DNA of 39,053 nt from a virus. Of this stretch, positions 10,041-27,703 are shown one piece after another; the first letter of the stretch is position 1; each line of letters begins with the position of its first letter. Both the position numbers and the translations under genes were made by a program. Location of the stretch: IMG/VR virus record IMGVR_UViG_3300035698_033634, positions 1-39,053 of that record. One strand, given 5' to 3'. The notes below the pieces were generated by a model. That model saw only the letters and a program-made list of their open reading frames with translations, searched no databases and was not told the DNA's origin.

Positions 10041-11873
10041 ATGGCGGGATTTACTCTCAGAAACCTTGATGGCAGATCAGGTGGTTTTTTAAATAATATT
10101 CAGAAAAATATCCGATATCTTTCATTTTTAGGAATGAAATATGAGGATAAGCTTATGAAACAATCCCGTTCTGTCGGTATTGCTGAAGCTGAAATAGATT
10201 CTATGTATAATCTTTACCATGGAATCCAACCAGGATACATGGGGTTAGATTATGGTCAAAAGGAATTCATAGCTTTTTACGATAAGGAATATCCTACCCG
10301 AAGAGACTTTTTGAGAAAGTTTGCGATGAATGGGGAAATAGAACATGTTCTTGAAGTTATTGCAGATGAATCGATTATATATGATGAAAATAATTATTTT
10401 GGATATCCAGCAACTAGGGATCTTAAATCATACATAAAGGAGGAAAAAGCTAAGGAAATTATTGATGATTTGAATGAAGCTTATAAAAAAGTTTATTTTG
10501 CATTCAAATTCAATAAGGGTCATGATGCATGGCACTATTTTAAGAAATTTTTAATTGATGGTTTTCTCTCCTTTGAAATTATCTATGATGGAGAAGATGG
10601 GGAAGAAGCTAAAAACATTATCGGATTCAAAGAAATAGATCCCATTTCTTTAGAGCCAGAGGTTAGGCTTGATGAAGATGGGAATGAATATAGAATGTGG
10701 ATACAATATAGGGGGGATGCAGATCGTCAGAGACAACTTTTAGATGCAAATATTATTTATATTTCTTGGGCTAGAGGAAACTTTATTTCAAGATTATCAT
10801 ATGTTGAAAGATTAGTTAGATCTTTTAACATGCTTCGAACTCTAGAAAATTCAAGGATCATATGGAATGTTTGGAACTCTCAATATAGAATGAAGATTGT
10901 AGTTCCTATTGGATCCCAATCAGAATCAAAAGCAAGAGCTAGATTATCGGAATTCCGAGGTATGTACAAAGAGGAATTAAACATAGATGACCAAAGTGGA
11001 GAAATTACTTATAATGGTAGTACTCAATTCAACTTTGCTAAAACATTCATAGTTCCTTCAAAGGATGGAACTCAGACCGAAATAGATTCTATGAAAGCTG
11101 AGGGATATAATTTAAGTGATACAGAATCTCTCAAATATTTCTGGAAAAGATTTATCATGGAAACCAAGGTTCCTACTTCTAGATTTAGCAATAGTTTAGA
11201 TGAAGCAAACAATGAAAGCTGGGGATCTGGACAAGGAATAGAACGAGAAGAAGTTAGTTTTTCTAATTTTACCAATAGGATCCAATCTATATTTCAGGAG
11301 ATTTTAGTCAAACCTACATGGTATCAATTTATTTTAAAACATCCTCAATTTGCTAAAGATCAATCATTACAATCCATATTTGGTGTTGTATTCAATGAAG
11401 AGAATCTTTATAAAATTGCTAAAGAGAGGGAGTTAGCTGAAAAGGGGGCTAACACTATAAATACTCTAATGGGGGTAAAAGAATCAACAGTTAATCCTGA
11501 TGGAACATTAGGGGAAAAAAGTTATTTTGATGCAAAATTCTTAGTAGAAAAATACATGGATTTTAGGGATGTTGATATTAAGCTTAATGATAAGTATAAG
11601 AGGGAAAGGGATTCTGAAATAAAAAGACTTGCAAAAGCTTATGCAAAAATGGCAGCAGCTCAACAAGGAGAAGCTGGTGGGGAAGCTGGATTTGGAGGAG
11701 AAGCCGGAGGAGGATTTGGAGACCTTGGTGGAGGTGGAGATTTTGGAGGAGAAGCCGGAGGAGGATTTGGAGACCTTGGCGGAGGTGGAGATTTTGGAGG
11801 AGGAGACGAAGGATTGGGTGATCTAGGAGGAGAAGAAGGAGGAGAAGAAGGAGGAGAAGAAACTGAAGCATAA
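10041..11873 (+). CDS. 20: Portal vertex protein, gp20-like, with Gly-rich repeat tail
   Basis: The portal dodecamer is the gate for DNA packaging and the attachment site for the terminase and neck. Residues 1-~540 have gp20 features: FLRKFAMNGEIEHVLEVIADE, a wing/stem region with DANIIYISWARGNFISRLSYVE, MLRTLENSRIIWNVWNSQYRMKI, VPTSRFSN and FILKHPQF near the end of the core, all patterned like T4 gp20 (524 residues). After the core comes a ~60-residue tail made almost entirely of Gly, Asp, Glu, Phe and Ala, with a 17-residue unit (GGGGDFGGEAGGGFGDL) repeated in tandem and ending GGEEGGEEGGEETEA. The tail is absent in T4. An exact TATAAATA box lies just upstream. Confidence 0.9.
   Translation: MAGFTLRNLDGRSGGFLNNIQKNIRYLSFLGMKYEDKLMKQSRSVGIAEAEIDSMYNLYHGIQPGYMGLDYGQKEFIAFYDKEYPTRRDFLRKFAMNGEIEHVLEVIADESIIYDENNYFGYPATRDLKSYIKEEKAKEIIDDLNEAYKKVYFAFKFNKGHDAWHYFKKFLIDGFLSFEIIYDGEDGEEAKNIIGFKEIDPISLEPEVRLDEDGNEYRMWIQYRGDADRQRQLLDANIIYISWARGNFISRLSYVERLVRSFNMLRTLENSRIIWNVWNSQYRMKIVVPIGSQSESKARARLSEFRGMYKEELNIDDQSGEITYNGSTQFNFAKTFIVPSKDGTQTEIDSMKAEGYNLSDTESLKYFWKRFIMETKVPTSRFSNSLDEANNESWGSGQGIEREEVSFSNFTNRIQSIFQEILVKPTWYQFILKHPQFAKDQSLQSIFGVVFNEENLYKIAKERELAEKGANTINTLMGVKESTVNPDGTLGEKSYFDAKFLVEKYMDFRDVDIKLNDKYKRERDSEIKRLAKAYAKMAAAQQGEAGGEAGFGGEAGGGFGDLGGGGDFGGEAGGGFGDLGGGGDFGGGDEGLGDLGGEEGGEEGGEETEA
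11691..11804 (+). repeat. 51-bp tandem repeat inside portal gene
   Basis: Units at 11691-11741 and 11742-11792 are nearly identical (one visible base change, GGT/GGC, in the Gly stretch), and a partial third unit starts at 11793. The period of 51 bp keeps the reading frame and encodes 17 residues. Copy number could vary by slippage or recombination. Confidence 0.85.
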
Positions 11874-12381: not shown

Positions 12382-12720
12382 ATGTGGAAAACAATTTTAA
12401 TGAAGTTTTTAGCAAAAGCTAAAGTATGGCTAACAGAAACAGGTCTTACAAACTTAATCTATCTTGGATTAGGATTTGGTATTTGGTTAGGAATTATACC
12501 TTTATTGGTTTTTGGATTTTTAAAAGCCTATTTAGTAGGGGCCTTTTTCGGGATTTTCATTTATCTAAATTGGAACATTATCGTTAAGCTTTATAAAAGC
12601 ACTAAAATAGATGATTTTGTTGATGATGTAAAAGATAAAATAGAAGATAAATTAGATAAGGATAAGATAGGGGTAGAGAAGCCAATAACAAGGGATTCTG
12701 GAGGACCAATAATTCAATAA
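12382..12720 (+). CDS. Small membrane protein with charged C-terminal tail
   Basis: I chose ATG 12382 (MWKTILMKFL) over an in-frame upstream start at 12319, which would overlap the previous gene. The product is 112 residues: an amphipathic N-terminus, a membrane segment or helical hairpin at ~24-66 (LGLGFGIWLGIIPLLVFGFL then AYLVGAFFGIFIYLNW), and a charged cytoplasmic-type tail (DDFVDDVKDKIEDKLDKDK). The shape would suit a small holin-like or membrane-anchoring protein, but no family signature confirms either. A strong terminator follows 26 nt after the stop. Confidence 0.5.
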   Translation: MWKTILMKFLAKAKVWLTETGLTNLIYLGLGFGIWLGIIPLLVFGFLKAYLVGAFFGIFIYLNWNIIVKLYKSTKIDDFVDDVKDKIEDKLDKDKIGVEKPITRDSGGPIIQ

Positions 12721-12829: not shown

Positions 12830-13634
12830 ATGTATAAATGTAAAACATGTGAAGCGGAATTTGAATCCTTCGGTCAGCTAGGTAATCATGTAAGATGGAA
12901 GCATAAAGACAATTCGCAATTTATTAAAAATATAAGAAAATCATTTTACGAAAATGATGAAAAAACTTACGGAAGATGGATAAATGAAATTGCAATATGC
13001 TCTTGTGATAAATGCAATAATGAAACTATCATAAAATACAGAGAGGGGGAAAAGAAAGAAAAAATATTATTGCAGTAAATCGTGTGCAAACTTTAGGGGA
13101 AGCACAAAAAAATATTTTGACAAAAAAACTAGAAAAAAGATATCTAAAGCTGTTATAAAAGCTTGGGATGATAATAAATATAATAATTTAAAGATTATAA
13201 GCTCTCGGAATGAAAGACTAATAGTAAAATATATTAAAGAGAAATATCCATTGGATGGCTGGAAATCAGGAGGGGGATTAAAATTTGAGGGGAAAAGAAT
13301 AGTAAGGGATTTATGGAGTGATAAGCTTCAGATTTGTTTTGAATATGATGGAATTTGGCATTTTGAAGATATATTAGGTCAGCTTGAGGACAAAAAAATA
13401 AAGGATAATCTTTTAGAAAAATGGTGTATTTATAATAATTATAGATTAATTCGAATTGATGAATTAGAATTTATTAATGAACAGCAAATAGAAAATTTGA
13501 TTTATGAAAATAAAGAGCCTATTATAAAAATAGGAAAAAGATATAAAGGAATCCCGAATGGGATAGCTAATGTGAAAGATATAGAAGACGGCGGTTCGAG
13601 TCCGCCATGTTCCACTGAGATAATAAATAAATAG
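12830..13634 (+). pseudogene. Homing endonuclease (zinc-finger / Vsr-like) split by a frameshift
   Basis: Two frames together make one endonuclease. The first (from ATG 12830) starts with a C2H2 finger (C4, C7, H20, H25) and reaches CSCDKCNNETIIKYREGEKK before stopping at 13076-13078. If one A of the A6 run at 13059-13064 is skipped, the next frame continues KYYCSKSCANFRG, completing the Cys cluster, and then gives a nuclease core (RIVRDLW...CFEYDGIWHFED...YRLIRIDE) like PD-(D/E)xK/Vsr homing enzymes. The homologous part ends near 13500; the open frame runs on to 13634, through the tmRNA acceptor piece, which is probably fortuitous. Decay, a homopolymer sequencing error or programmed slippage could each explain the break. 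Confidence 0.7.
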
Positions 13635-13752
13635 GGGCATACTTGGATTTGATTGTATATCGGAAAGATTAGTGAAGACCTTTATAATGCTATAAATGGC
13701 ACATATAATGAAATGAAAATGGCGGCCTAAGGGTACCCATTTTCAAGAGACT
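13548..13752 (+). ncRNA. ssrA: Circularly permuted two-piece tmRNA (ssrA) gene with tag GTYNEMKMAA
   Basis: tmRNA with SmpB frees stalled ribosomes and adds a degradation tag. Acceptor piece first: hairpin ATCCC/GGGAT (13551-13564), P2 strand GATATA (13578-13583), T arm GGCGG-TTCGAGT-CCGCC (13590-13606), acceptor strand ATGTTCC (13607-13613), discriminator A13614, CCA not encoded. A 19-nt spacer (13615-13633) follows. Coding piece: acceptor strand GGGGCAT (13634-13640), which pairs with all seven bases of ATGTTCC (two G-U); D region ACTTGGATTTGATTG (13641-13655); P2 strand TATATC (13656-13661); tag frame GGC to TAA (13698-13730) = GTYNEMKMAA; and P5-like stem GAAAATGG/CCATTTTC (13715-13722 with 13737-13744) looping out the tag's stop. 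The order 3' half, spacer, 5' half is that of permuted tmRNA genes of alphaproteobacteria and cyanobacteria. The 5' end of the acceptor piece and the pseudoknots are not defined. Confidence 0.85.
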
Positions 13753-13783
13753 AGCCTGCTGCTAAAGTGCAGGCTTTTTTTTT
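13753..13783 (+). terminator. Terminator of the tmRNA transcript
   Basis: AGCCTGC (13753-13759) pairs with GCAGGCT (13769-13775) and runs into nine T's. It ends the RNA shortly after the tag/P5 helix, with no second tRNA 3' half before it, so the gene cannot be a conventional one-piece tmRNA. Confidence 0.85.
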
Positions 13784-13796
13784 GCGGAATATATAA

Positions 13797-13804
13797 GATA
13801 AATA
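13797..13804 (+). promoter_or_regulatory. Candidate late promoter box (GATAAATA)
   Basis: GATAAATA just after the tmRNA terminator and 59 nt before the gene at 13864; it probably restarts late transcription for the following genes. Confidence 0.4.
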
Positions 13805-13863
13805 ATAAAGTTAAAAAAAGCTTAATCGAATAAATAGGATATATAAAATAAAAGTTCAGAATT

Positions 13864-14361
13864 ATGAAATCAGCAGGGCATTTTAATATCAATGATTATA
13901 TGGAAAACCTCTACGAAGCAGAAGAAGCTCAAGAAGCTAAAACTGCAGGTGGGGTAAAAGGGGATAATGGGGAAGGACTTATTATACCCGCAGAAAATAA
14001 AAAATCATATGATTGGCTCAAAAAGGAATACAAAAAGGGTCAGGTAGAAGTAAAAGTTGAAATGAAAATGGGGGGGTCAGATTTCAAACCGGGACTAGAT
14101 ATGCAAGCTACATCTAAATCTGCTGAAAACTTCAAACCGGGTATGTATGGAGCTGGAGGTAAAGATTCCGATTCAACTACTAAAACTCCGGAAGGAGGAT
14201 TGGGTACAAGTATAAAGAGCGAAGGATCTCCTAAAAAATCTGAAAAGAAAGAAGATGTAGCTGATGATAAACCATCTAAAAAATCAGCTGGAGTTCAAGT
14301 AAAAGGAGCCATGACTTCGCCTAAAAAGAAAAAAGAAAAAGAAGAATCAGATGATGAATGA
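13864..14361 (+). CDS. Low-complexity charged protein, possible internal head protein
   Basis: A 165-residue protein rich in Lys, Glu, Gly and Ser, largely disordered in appearance. It has a twofold internal element (SDFKPGLDMQATSKSAENFKPGMYGAGG, in which DFKPG and NFKPG recur) and a Lys-rich end. The N-terminus MKSAGHFNINDYMENLYE contains L-Y-E, a possible prohead-protease site, and is similar in style to the T4 internal-protein leader. I do not recognise the family. It overlaps the next gene by 11 nt, so translation is probably coupled. Confidence 0.6.
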   Translation: MKSAGHFNINDYMENLYEAEEAQEAKTAGGVKGDNGEGLIIPAENKKSYDWLKKEYKKGQVEVKVEMKMGGSDFKPGLDMQATSKSAENFKPGMYGAGGKDSDSTTKTPEGGLGTSIKSEGSPKKSEKKEDVADDKPSKKSAGVQVKGAMTSPKKKKEKEESDDE

Positions 14362-14697: not shown

Positions 14698-15270
14698 ATG
14701 ATAGATAAAATTTCAAATACTGAAGAACAATTCATTTCAATAATCGAGCATTGTAGAGATCTTTTTGCTAAGAAGACTGCGGATTATGGAACAGCTTGGA
14801 GAATTCTTCGTATGCCTACGTTAACTGATCAAATCTATATCAAAGCTCAAAGGATTAGAAGTATTCAAGAAGCTGGAGAACAAAAGGTTAAGGATCCTAT
14901 ACGGGATGAATTTATTGGAATGATCAATTATTCGGTCATAGCTTTAATTCAAAACAAAATCAAAACTATTGAAAGGGAAAATAATTTACCCCTGGAAATG
15001 GATCCTGTTGAGACTATGGATTTTTATGATACGGAGGTCAAAACCATTAAGAATTTATTGACAGCTAAAAATCATGATTACGGAGAAGCTTGGAGAAGTA
15101 TGAGAATTTCTTCTATGACTGATTTGATTCTTCAAAAGCTCTTAAGGATTAAACAAATCGAAGACAATGGGGGTAAAACCTTGGTTTCCGAAGGAATAAC
15201 TGCTGGATATCAAGATATTGTAAATTATTCTGTATTTTGTCTTATTCTAATGAATGAATTGAATATATAA
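14698..15270 (+). CDS. DUF1599 protein with two tandem domains
   Basis: A 190-residue protein made of two copies of the DUF1599 (nucleotide modification associated domain 1) unit: residues ~19-87 (CRDLFAKKTADYGTAWRILR...IYIKAQRIRSIQEAG...INYSVIALI) and ~114-186 (KNLLTAKNHDYGEAWRSMR...LRIKQIEDNG...VNYSVFCLI). The conserved features are the DYGxAWR motif, the R-I-R/K-x-I-x-x-x-G helix and the final NYSV helix. Proteins of this family are common in Bacteroidota, and the arrangement resembles all-alpha nucleotide pyrophosphatases. A role in the nucleotide pool or modified-base metabolism is inferred. The start is 17 nt after the previous stop; a hairpin follows immediately. Confidence 0.85.
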   Translation: MIDKISNTEEQFISIIEHCRDLFAKKTADYGTAWRILRMPTLTDQIYIKAQRIRSIQEAGEQKVKDPIRDEFIGMINYSVIALIQNKIKTIERENNLPLEMDPVETMDFYDTEVKTIKNLLTAKNHDYGEAWRSMRISSMTDLILQKLLRIKQIEDNGGKTLVSEGITAGYQDIVNYSVFCLILMNELNI

Positions 15271-15858: not shown

Positions 15859-16485
15859 ATGTATAGGGAAAATTCAATTCAATCATTAGCTTTAAAATTT
15901 ATAGAAGAGAAAAAAGAAGATTCTTTTCGAAAATTAATCAATCGATTAAAACCGGGCCTTATGGGCTTTGCTTATAAATATCTAAAAGATATGGATTCTG
16001 CTAAAGAAGTAGTTTCGCAGGTTTTCATTATCGTCTGGGAGAAGTCTCATCAATATAATCCTAAATGGAATTTTTCTACTTGGGTTTATTCAATTGCAAA
16101 AAATGAGTCGTTAGGAGCATTAAGACTCAAAAAAAGAAATATATCCCATGAAAAATTAGAGGAAAATCAATCAAGGGTTTTAAGAATATATTCACCTGAA
16201 GTAAATATGGACACTGAGGTAATAGGGCCTTCAGTAGATGAAATAATTGATTCTCTTCATGAAAAAACATTAGAGGAGATAGATAATCTTTCAGAGCCCT
16301 ATAGATCTATTATGATTGAAAGAGAATTAAAAAATAAACAGCTCCAAGAGATTGCAAAGGATCTAGATATGAATCTCTCTACGGTCAAAACCAGGATTCG
16401 AAAAGCTAGAAAAGATATACAGGACAGCATTTTAGAAAAGCATCCTTCATTAGTAAAAGCATATTATGAAAGGGACGAGGAATAA
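15859..16485 (+). CDS. ECF-type RNA polymerase sigma factor
   Basis: A 208-residue group 4 (ECF) sigma factor. Region 2 spans ~28-95: LKPGLMGFAYKYLKDMDSAKEVVSQVFIIVWEK, then FSTWVYSIAKNESLGALR, the conserved -10 recognition and core-binding helices. A ~50-residue linker leads to region 4 at ~145-195: LSEPYRSIMIERELKNKQLQEIAKDLDMNLSTVKTRIRKAR, a helix-turn-helix for the -35 element. It is close to cellular RpoE-like proteins of Bacteroidota. It would redirect host polymerase to a phage-specific promoter set, probably earlier than the gp55 programme. A membrane-protein gene overlaps its 3' end by 20 nt. No region 3 is present, as expected for ECF factors. Confidence 0.9.
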   Translation: MYRENSIQSLALKFIEEKKEDSFRKLINRLKPGLMGFAYKYLKDMDSAKEVVSQVFIIVWEKSHQYNPKWNFSTWVYSIAKNESLGALRLKKRNISHEKLEENQSRVLRIYSPEVNMDTEVIGPSVDEIIDSLHEKTLEEIDNLSEPYRSIMIERELKNKQLQEIAKDLDMNLSTVKTRIRKARKDIQDSILEKHPSLVKAYYERDEE

Positions 16486-26492: not shown

Positions 26493-26564
26493 TTAATAAT
26501 CTAGATATGAAAAATCGGGATCATAATCCCCTGCTCGATCAAATAAATTTTGTGGGTTTTTCAT
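26493..26564 (-). CDS. 23-codon micro-ORF coupled to thyA
   Basis: The start ATG (26564-26562) overlaps the thyA stop TGA (26563-26561) as ATGA, a classical translational-coupling arrangement. The peptide is 23 residues, acidic and aromatic (MKNPQNLFDRAGDYDPDFSY...), and ends with TAA at 26495-26493, 21 nt before the glycosyltransferase start. The composition is not random-like for this AT-rich DNA, but the frame is too short to be certain. Confidence 0.45.
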   Translation of the reverse strand: MKNPQNLFDRAGDYDPDFSYLDY

Positions 26565-27703
26565 TTTTTGATGCCTGTGCTTAATTCGGCTTTAATAAGT
26601 TTATAACTTTGATATCCTTCTAGATATATATCGCTAGTTCCAATTTGACGGATAAATTCGTCAAAATCTAATTTGCTATCATTAAAATCTTTCATAGATG
26701 ATAAAAAATTATCTGAGAATTCTAAATTTGGCAAGGAATATTTATTAACGTCGTTTCCTAATATTTCATTAACCTGATCCATATGATTACTATAGATATG
26801 AACGTCCCCGAATGTGTGTATATATTTTCCAGGAACCATGTTAACTAATTCTGCAATCAAAGATGTTAATAAAGCATAACTTGATATATTATAGGGAACC
26901 CCTAAGAAGGAATCGGCCGAGCGCTGGTACATTTTGCAATCCAAATAATATTTAGGAATATTAATTTCGTCAAGTTTTTTATGTAAAGCTGGGATGTTAT
27001 TTATTCTAATAAATCCATAGACATCCCCCATTCCTATAATTATAGGTGCATCATTAATATTAACTCCTCTTAGGGGAATATCGAACGGACATTTATTTTC
27101 CTTTATAGATTTTAAAATCCTTTCTTTGATAGGAATAGGTCTTGCATTGAATTGAAACATTGAATGGCACCAGTATAGAGCTAGCTGATCATCATGACGA
27201 GGATCTACTGCTGTTATAACATGTCTTCTTCCTTCCGGACTATTTCTAAGATTATCAATTAATCTTGAAATTTGATCGACCCCATTAAAATCCCTCCAAA
27301 CTTTACCATATTGATATCCACAATCGCCATATTTATAAAACATAGATCCCTCTTCCTCAAAATCCCTTGGTCCTTTAAGTATTGATTCAAATTCTTCCCA
27401 TGAAAGATTGGAATTTTTAACTACTTTTTTGTAGTAATTATAAGAATCTTGATTCCATATTCTTACTCCATTATCGTTTAAAAATTTGACATTTGTATCT
27501 CCCCGGAGAAACCAAAGAAGCTCAGTGACTATATGTTTAAAATTTACTTTCTTTGTTGTTAGAATGGGAAATCCTTTTTCTAAATTGAATGGATCCATTT
27601 GGTATCCAAATAAGGATGTAGTTGTGGGCATGTTCTCCCTAGCAGGTTCTTTATATGTTCCTTCTTCTAGAATTTCATTTAATAAGTCGTGATATTGTTT
27701 CAT
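26561..27703 (-). CDS. thyA: Thymidylate synthase
   Basis: Converts dUMP and methylene-tetrahydrofolate to dTMP. Signature elements are all present: FPILTTKKV (~45-53), ELLWFLRGDTN (61-71), NSPEGRRHVITAVDP (dUMP phosphate arginines), YWCHSMFQF with catalytic Cys179, MYQRSADSFLGVPYNISSYALL (258-279) and HTFGDVHIYSNH. At 380 residues it is much longer than the E. coli enzyme (264). The main insertion (~187-253) separates FQF from the YLDCKMYQRS strand, and a second lies near 86-125; both remain in frame and leave the catalytic motifs intact. Unlike T4 td, it has no group I intron. A 23-codon ORF is coupled to its stop, followed by a glycosyltransferase. Confidence 0.95.
   Translation of the reverse strand: MKQYHDLLNEILEEGTYKEPARENMPTTTSLFGYQMDPFNLEKGFPILTTKKVNFKHIVTELLWFLRGDTNVKFLNDNGVRIWNQDSYNYYKKVVKNSNLSWEEFESILKGPRDFEEEGSMFYKYGDCGYQYGKVWRDFNGVDQISRLIDNLRNSPEGRRHVITAVDPRHDDQLALYWCHSMFQFNARPIPIKERILKSIKENKCPFDIPLRGVNINDAPIIIGMGDVYGFIRINNIPALHKKLDEINIPKYYLDCKMYQRSADSFLGVPYNISSYALLTSLIAELVNMVPGKYIHTFGDVHIYSNHMDQVNEILGNDVNKYSLPNLEFSDNFLSSMKDFNDSKLDFDEFIRQIGTSDIYLEGYQSYKLIKAELSTGIKK

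Follow-up and report, generated by a model that had tools for sequence, protein, structure and literature searches.

We analysed a 39,053-nt stretch of viral DNA (IMG/VR record IMGVR_UViG_3300035698_033634, positions 1 to 39,053; hereafter the window), which carries a circularly permuted, two-piece transfer-messenger RNA (tmRNA) gene at 13542-13783 on the plus strand, the strand also of its parts, of the portal gene and of the gene at 13864-14361 described below. A permuted tmRNA (tmRNA*) encoding the tag GTYNEMKMAA followed by a stop is the sole ARAGORN gene in the window (13524-13821), and a search with all 4227 Rfam families gave one match above its curated cut-off, to RF04321 (tmRNA_permuted) at 13566-13730, scoring 48.2 bits against a cut-off of 47 (E = 1.2e-6). 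Among the matches listed for the surrounding 1.4-kb region there are permuted models only and none to the standard one-piece model; the tRNA 3' half lies upstream of the 5' half, and neither half is duplicated nearby. A preliminary description, made from the letters alone, had proposed a permuted tmRNA gene with no other 3' half at 13548-13783, and had suggested covariance models, joint folding and an alignment of homologues as checks. All three were run, and the gene is borne out by ARAGORN, the RF04321 match and comparative covariation.

The acceptor piece, which corresponds to the tRNA 3' half, spans 13542-13614 by RF04321 and ARAGORN, with its 5' limit taken from a covarying helix. It comprises the 5' strand of an outer inter-piece helix (TATAAAGG, 13542-13549), an internal hairpin in folds (ATCCC-GAAT-GGGAT, 13551-13564) that is drawn at the same position in many relatives, the upper P2 strand GCTAAT (13566-13571), the P2 3' strand GATATA (13578-13583), the T arm (13590-13606, with GGCGG at 13590-13594, loop TTCGAGT and CCGCC at 13602-13606), and the acceptor 3' strand ATGTTCC (13607-13613) with the discriminator A73 (together 13607-13614). 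After an intervening spacer of 19 nt (13615-13633), the coding piece (13634-13783 by ARAGORN, RF04321 and folding) holds the tRNA 5' half, the tag and the terminator. It begins with the acceptor 5' strand GGGGCAT (13634-13640), followed by the P2 5' strand TATATC (13656-13661), the partner of upper P2, ATTAGT (13668-13673), and the 3' strand of the outer helix (CCTTTATA, 13679-13686). The tag frame (13698-13730), read by ARAGORN and supported by the conserved tags of relatives, starts with the resume codon GGC at 13698 and ends GCG GCC TAA, with the stop at 13728-13730 inside the loop of a P5-like hairpin (13716-13743; 13716-13722 paired with 13736-13743 in the fold). The elements listed in the preliminary description, namely the T arm, an acceptor stem with two G-U pairs, the spacer, a 6-bp P2, and a tag frame ending Ala-Ala-stop in a P5-like loop ahead of a terminator, can all be read in the sequence.

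All seven acceptor-stem positions pair, the two G-U pairs being G3-U70 and G4-U69. CCA is not encoded in the window, where A73 is followed by CTG, and the sequences measured in the related phages described below have a single C; this is not disqualifying, because CCA may be added after transcription. The terminator-type hairpin AGCCTGC/GCAGGCT with its T run (~13753-13783), recognised from fold and sequence, was not listed by a terminator scan because its 9-nt loop exceeds the limit of that scan. Sites found in a sigma-70 promoter scan were no commoner than in shuffled sequences, and no promoter is claimed.

Joint folding of 13540-13786 recovers the acceptor stem, P2, upper P2 and the outer helix, and none of 200 shuffles is as stable (z = -3.46); folded separately, the two pieces are ordinary (z -1.84 and -1.60 against shuffles). 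The tRNA-like domain was aligned over 16 sequences, 15 from a clade of related phages and one from a prophage copy (L268), to assess P2, the T stem and the acceptor stem (covariation helices 1, 2 and 3, respectively). Pairing is complete (100%) in the acceptor and T stems and 77% in P2; both partners have changed in 15 of the 20 pairs (49 double-change cells), among them four of the five pairs of the T stem. The covariation score of 0.476, compared with 0.029-0.171 for the slid structure, was reached by 0 of 500 shuffles. Compensatory variants of the acceptor stem include CAT/ATG, ATG/CAT, GTG/CAC and CTG/CAG, and G3-U70 and A73 are kept in all sequences measured.

The outer helix covaries as well over the 15 huge-phage sequences, with TTGAGA/TCTCAA, CTGAGA/TCTCAG, TATTGGGA/TTCCAATA and ATAAGTTC/GAACTTAT among the variants in relatives. 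In this test the best helix was chosen within a region of 20 by 24 nt and swapped pairs were given equal freedom; 0 of 5000 partner swaps reach its mean. The helix is absent within that region from the prophage copy. Since TATAAAGG at 13542-13549 pairs with CCTTTATA at 13679-13686, the acceptor piece begins somewhat upstream of the 13548 given initially. A chance origin of the gene was dropped in view of the stem and outer-helix covariation.

Relatives were gathered among IMG/VR contigs through the portal protein (gene at 10041-11873; PHROG 213). Scanning for exact copies of the acceptor sequence of the window turned up no relatives, and blastn against phages gave just two marginal matches. 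RF04321 matches were found in six of the first seven portal relatives (five above cut-off, L012 at 46.8 bits) and, above cut-off, in 9 of 50 further contigs, all nine at a portal identity of ~63% or more. Including the window, this amounts to 16 contigs but 15 different sequences, as L013 and L014 are identical, and 15 of the 16 contigs are above cut-off; scores of the relatives span 46.8-77.7 bits, and ARAGORN too supports a permuted gene in them. No RF04321 match above cut-off was found in contigs at ~39-50% portal identity, and the matchless contigs inside the clade are short fragments, except L047. In the portal tree the 15 permuted rows and three rows without a match form one group, whose support of 92/75 is not strong and which adjoins a group with the Lak phages and L059/L060. 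The gene order around the tmRNA is conserved as head closure, portal, tmRNA and a homologue of the gene at 13864-14361, the tmRNA lying downstream of the portal gene throughout the clade. What had been presented as a feature of a single phage is hence common to a whole phage clade.

This conservation bears on whether the locus could be the remains of a decaying gene, or a piece of an attachment site, with no working gene, which we regard as very improbable. The ssrA gene is a frequent integration site of prophages, which often contain pieces of it, and the gene has been lost in one relative (L047), but both halves, the stems and the tag persist, with compensatory changes, down to ~63-65% portal identity, the place by the portal gene is constant, and the window proteins tested included no recognisable integrase. 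In the window the tmRNA is immediately preceded by a frameshifted-looking HNH homing endonuclease gene (12830-13634), the frame of which enters the acceptor piece; a homologue (64%) occupies the same position in L125. A boxA-like motif, GTTCTTTRA, occurs shortly before the gene or inside its 5' end in several permuted cases (L011, L121, L123, L126) and also in the one-piece tmRNA of the huge phage LR756500 (L033).

The nearest relatives by portal (41-43%) and terminase (33-37%) are LR756500 and the Prevotella Lak phages. On these similarities the phage is related to the Lak/Mahaphage huge phages and has T4-type head and tail genes; huge phages are defined by a genome over 200 kb, and kinship of the window, a 39-kb fragment, is read from portal and terminase. 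The initial label of a T4-like or far-T4 phage thus holds for the head and tail genes, and the nearest named kin are Lak and Mahaphage. Lak phages and the largest Mahaphages have been assigned to Bacteroidetes hosts (PMC7162821), and the best 80 genome matches of a neighbouring DUF1599 protein (14698-15270), 56-63% identical, are all Bacteroidota by record titles. Both point to a Bacteroidota host as probable, in agreement with the preliminary description. The window also encodes a phage sigma-70 type factor (15859-16485) and a thymidylate synthase of 380 aa (26561-27703), which is longer than the Pfam domain and matches it in two stretches. Read with the standard code, the portal frames of L059 and L060 contain in-frame stops, a possible sign of recoding like that of Lak phages.

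The tags of the clade are GTYNEMKMAA (window), GVQTEMAMAA, SVQTEMAMAA, DANIYEMQMAA, GAQFNEYRIAA, GENSLEMKMAA, GEKQTQFAMAA, GVNKNEMAMAA, GENSYALQMAA, GEQFKEYRMAA, DNTVYEMKMAA, GENVYDYQMAA, DAETRTFAMAA, GAFETRELAMVA and GEFNTEMAQAA. They start with Gly (11 of 15), Asp (three) or Ser (one), and 12 of the 15 end in MAA. Bacteroidota tags are GENNYALAA, GESNYAMAA, GNTQYAMAA, GENSFAMAA and similar; the one-piece tmRNA of LR756500 has GNNAEMRMAA, and DDEI(D/E)FRMAA is encoded in the Lak frames. A control panel of known permuted genes gave, by ARAGORN, the Ala-start tags ANDNYVPVDYALAA, ANFNEYALAA, ANDDSFAPMAIAA, ANDKRFALAA and ANDEKFALAA and cyanophage AN/AK forms. Stenotrophomonas phage DLP6 (L286, KU682439.2 about 102807-103150) carries a permuted beta-like tmRNA with the tag ANDDSFAPMAIAA that is unannotated in the record.

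The layout, the pairing supported by covariation, the conserved tag and the conservation across the clade make it very likely that this is a functional two-piece tmRNA gene of a clade of Lak/Mahaphage-related huge phages with probable Bacteroidota hosts. A role in trans-translation is inferred because the anatomy fits, and with it transcription, processing, charging, SmpB use and a purpose in infection. The tRNA 3' half would come first in a single precursor; by analogy with known two-piece tmRNAs, tRNA-processing enzymes would cut at A73 and G1 to remove the spacer, after which CCA would be added. The two resulting RNAs would be held together by the acceptor stem, P2 and the outer helix, be charged with alanine through G3-U70, and be carried by SmpB into ribosomes stalled on broken mRNAs during infection. 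Addition of GTYNEMKMAA would release the ribosome and the tagged protein, whose Ala-Ala end would lead it to proteolysis. The gene could instead act as a decoy or SmpB sponge, its tRNA-like domain disturbing host trans-translation and its tag being irrelevant, a role for which support can be drawn from the literature (PMC11915505, also PMC4131195). We consider this improbable, as the open tag frame, the Ala-Ala end (one MVA) and the stop are kept in 15 of 15 clade sequences despite variation of the tag, and the DS6A form, unlike those of the clade, is without a tag.

One-piece tmRNA was found above cut-off in 22 of 24 Bacteroidota genomes and was not found in the other two. It is also present above cut-off in LR756500, LR756504, Lak-A1, Lak-B1 and three IMG/VR contigs, with RF00023 scores of 95.5 bits for LR756500 and 54 and 47.3 bits for the Lak phages. 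SmpB is encoded by Lak-A1, Lak-B1, LR756501, LR756502, LR756504 and the three IMG/VR contigs with one-piece tmRNA; it was not found in LR756500. A scan of 395 Bacteroidota genomes, in which five candidates per genome were scored and some can be missed, gave an RF04321 match in one (L268-L270; G315:C1, about 966000-1006000), with the tag GKVIQMNNAPVRLAA. The match adjoins rIIA/rIIB, DNA polymerase, helicase and integrase genes, and the genome retains, in addition, a one-piece tmRNA of its own that scores 160 bits; judged by the genes around it, the permuted gene most likely sits in a prophage.

Spacers are 16-186 nt long among the sequences measured and contain recurring motifs. The exact 17-mer CCGTCGCGTTAGTACGG occurs in 12 contigs of all IMG/VR, four of which are clade members or duplicates. 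In each of the other eight the motif coincides with a permuted tmRNA match (six above cut-off, L306 at 40.2 bits, and L307 cut by the piece end); by the proteins tested these contigs are neither close kin of the G315 prophage nor recognisably of the clade, and several carry GK-start tags like that of the prophage copy. The motif GCTAAYCCGTCGCGTTAGTACGG is shared by otherwise unrelated phages (L013 1575, L125 1565 (-), L128 1581 (-), L304, L306-L310, L313 and L314), and two further motifs recur in L012/L124 and L122/L126. A pseudoknot reading of the spacer motif was written down, but its plain folding is no better than that of shuffles; a role in precursor processing is one possibility.

Permuted tmRNAs have been described from three bacterial groups and organelles. 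No clade member passes the alpha_tmRNA, beta_tmRNA or cyano_tmRNA models (cut-offs of 50, 84 and 70 bits), the best clade scores being 49.8, 49.6 and 40.3 bits; the highest score of the window is 35.6 bits with cyano_tmRNA. Positive controls pass the alpha model (Melnitz 106.7 bits, HTVC008M 83.8 bits), and P-SSM2 gave no match. Marine permuted contigs found by pattern (L315-L326 except the clade member L317) have Ala-start tags and were set aside. Because the group models failed and the tags resemble those of Bacteroidota and LR756500, the comparison supports a lineage separate from the alpha, beta and cyano groups with Bacteroidota-like tags.

It is unlikely that the clade took an already permuted tmRNA from these groups or their phages and then diverged. 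Melnitz suggests that such transfers between phages occur (PMC9004378), and L125 and L313 fall no more than 2 bits short of the alpha cut-off, aided by alpha-like T loops (GGCGGAA/GGCAGTA); but all members fail the three models, whereas Melnitz and HTVC008M easily pass alpha, the best-scoring model varies from member to member, and the Gly, Asp or single Ser starts and mostly MAA ends of the tags differ from the Ala starts of the known-permuted panel. As a separate observation, the T loops of L013 and L125 (GGCAGAA and GGCGGAA) resemble the alphaproteobacterial form, and the D loop is altered to match (TAG in place of TGG). The comparison can reasonably be read as an independent permutation, which may have taken place within these phages or have come to them from other phages carrying permuted genes. 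Tentatively, and with somewhat more doubt than confidence, we suggest a fourth independent permutation within the phage lineage (or among Bacteroidota phages), starting from a one-piece Bacteroidota-type phage tmRNA, the form being now phage-only and its unrelated carriers sharing the spacer motif.

Several observations weigh against a functional gene of separate origin. The RF04321 scores of several members, the window included, are near the cut-off. L047 is without the tmRNA (~12400-12500) and retains both flanking genes, so that the gene is dispensable. SmpB was not found in the permuted-clade contigs, all of which are fragments of up to 162 kb. Score alone does not cleanly separate the clade from the alpha group, because L125 reaches 49.8 bits with the alpha model, and in the poorly resolved tmRNA sequence tree the alpha rows are not clearly apart. 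The origin is not settled by global alignment scores of the coding half or by a tree of rearranged tmRNAs, the sequences being short and divergent and the bootstrap not settled.

The RF04321 model derives from genes of the alpha, beta and cyano groups (PMC11915505), and permuted tmRNAs in phages, Melnitz and others, are already known (PMC9004378). A survey of 402 phages with ssrA had 53 of 133 unique tmRNA structures suggested as two-piece by ARAGORN, mostly from marine or aquatic phages (PMC9004378). Our literature search, with many journals outside its coverage, found no paper describing a permuted tmRNA from huge phages or from phages of Bacteroidota. The preliminary description had called the gene unusual, which stands for its host group and separate lineage and not for its presence in a phage, as the re-finding of Melnitz and HTVC008M illustrates. 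New is a permuted lineage outside the three group models with mostly Gly-start, Met-Ala-Ala-end tags; the permuted tmRNAs of named phages so far, in the cases compared here, are relatives of the alpha, beta and cyano types. The results lend further weight to the view that huge phages have ribosome rescue (tmRNA and SmpB) of their own, with a phage-specific tag.

With the known permuted groups the clade shares the order of 3' half then 5' half, the tRNA-like domain, G3-U70, and a tag with its stop in a hairpin; it differs in failing the group models and in its Gly/Asp-start tags, its own outer helix and the lack of an encoded CCA. The T4-like marine phages Melnitz (Methylophilales phage) and HTVC008M (Pelagibacter phage) likewise carry a two-piece tmRNA in a large myophage, but theirs are of alpha type with the tags ANDNYVPVDYALAA and ANFNEYALAA, whereas the clade appears as a separate lineage with probable Bacteroidota hosts. 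The tmRNA of Bacteroidota hosts shares the Gly resume codon GGC and an MAA/LAA tag end with the clade gene and differs in being one piece. LR756500 and the Lak phages are related by portal, and the LR756500 tag shares the EMxMAA end with the window tag; their tmRNA genes have the standard order, and relative to the portal gene that of Lak is upstream and that of the clade downstream. One- and two-piece tmRNA relatives thus occur within one virus group, which makes the route to permutation directly testable.
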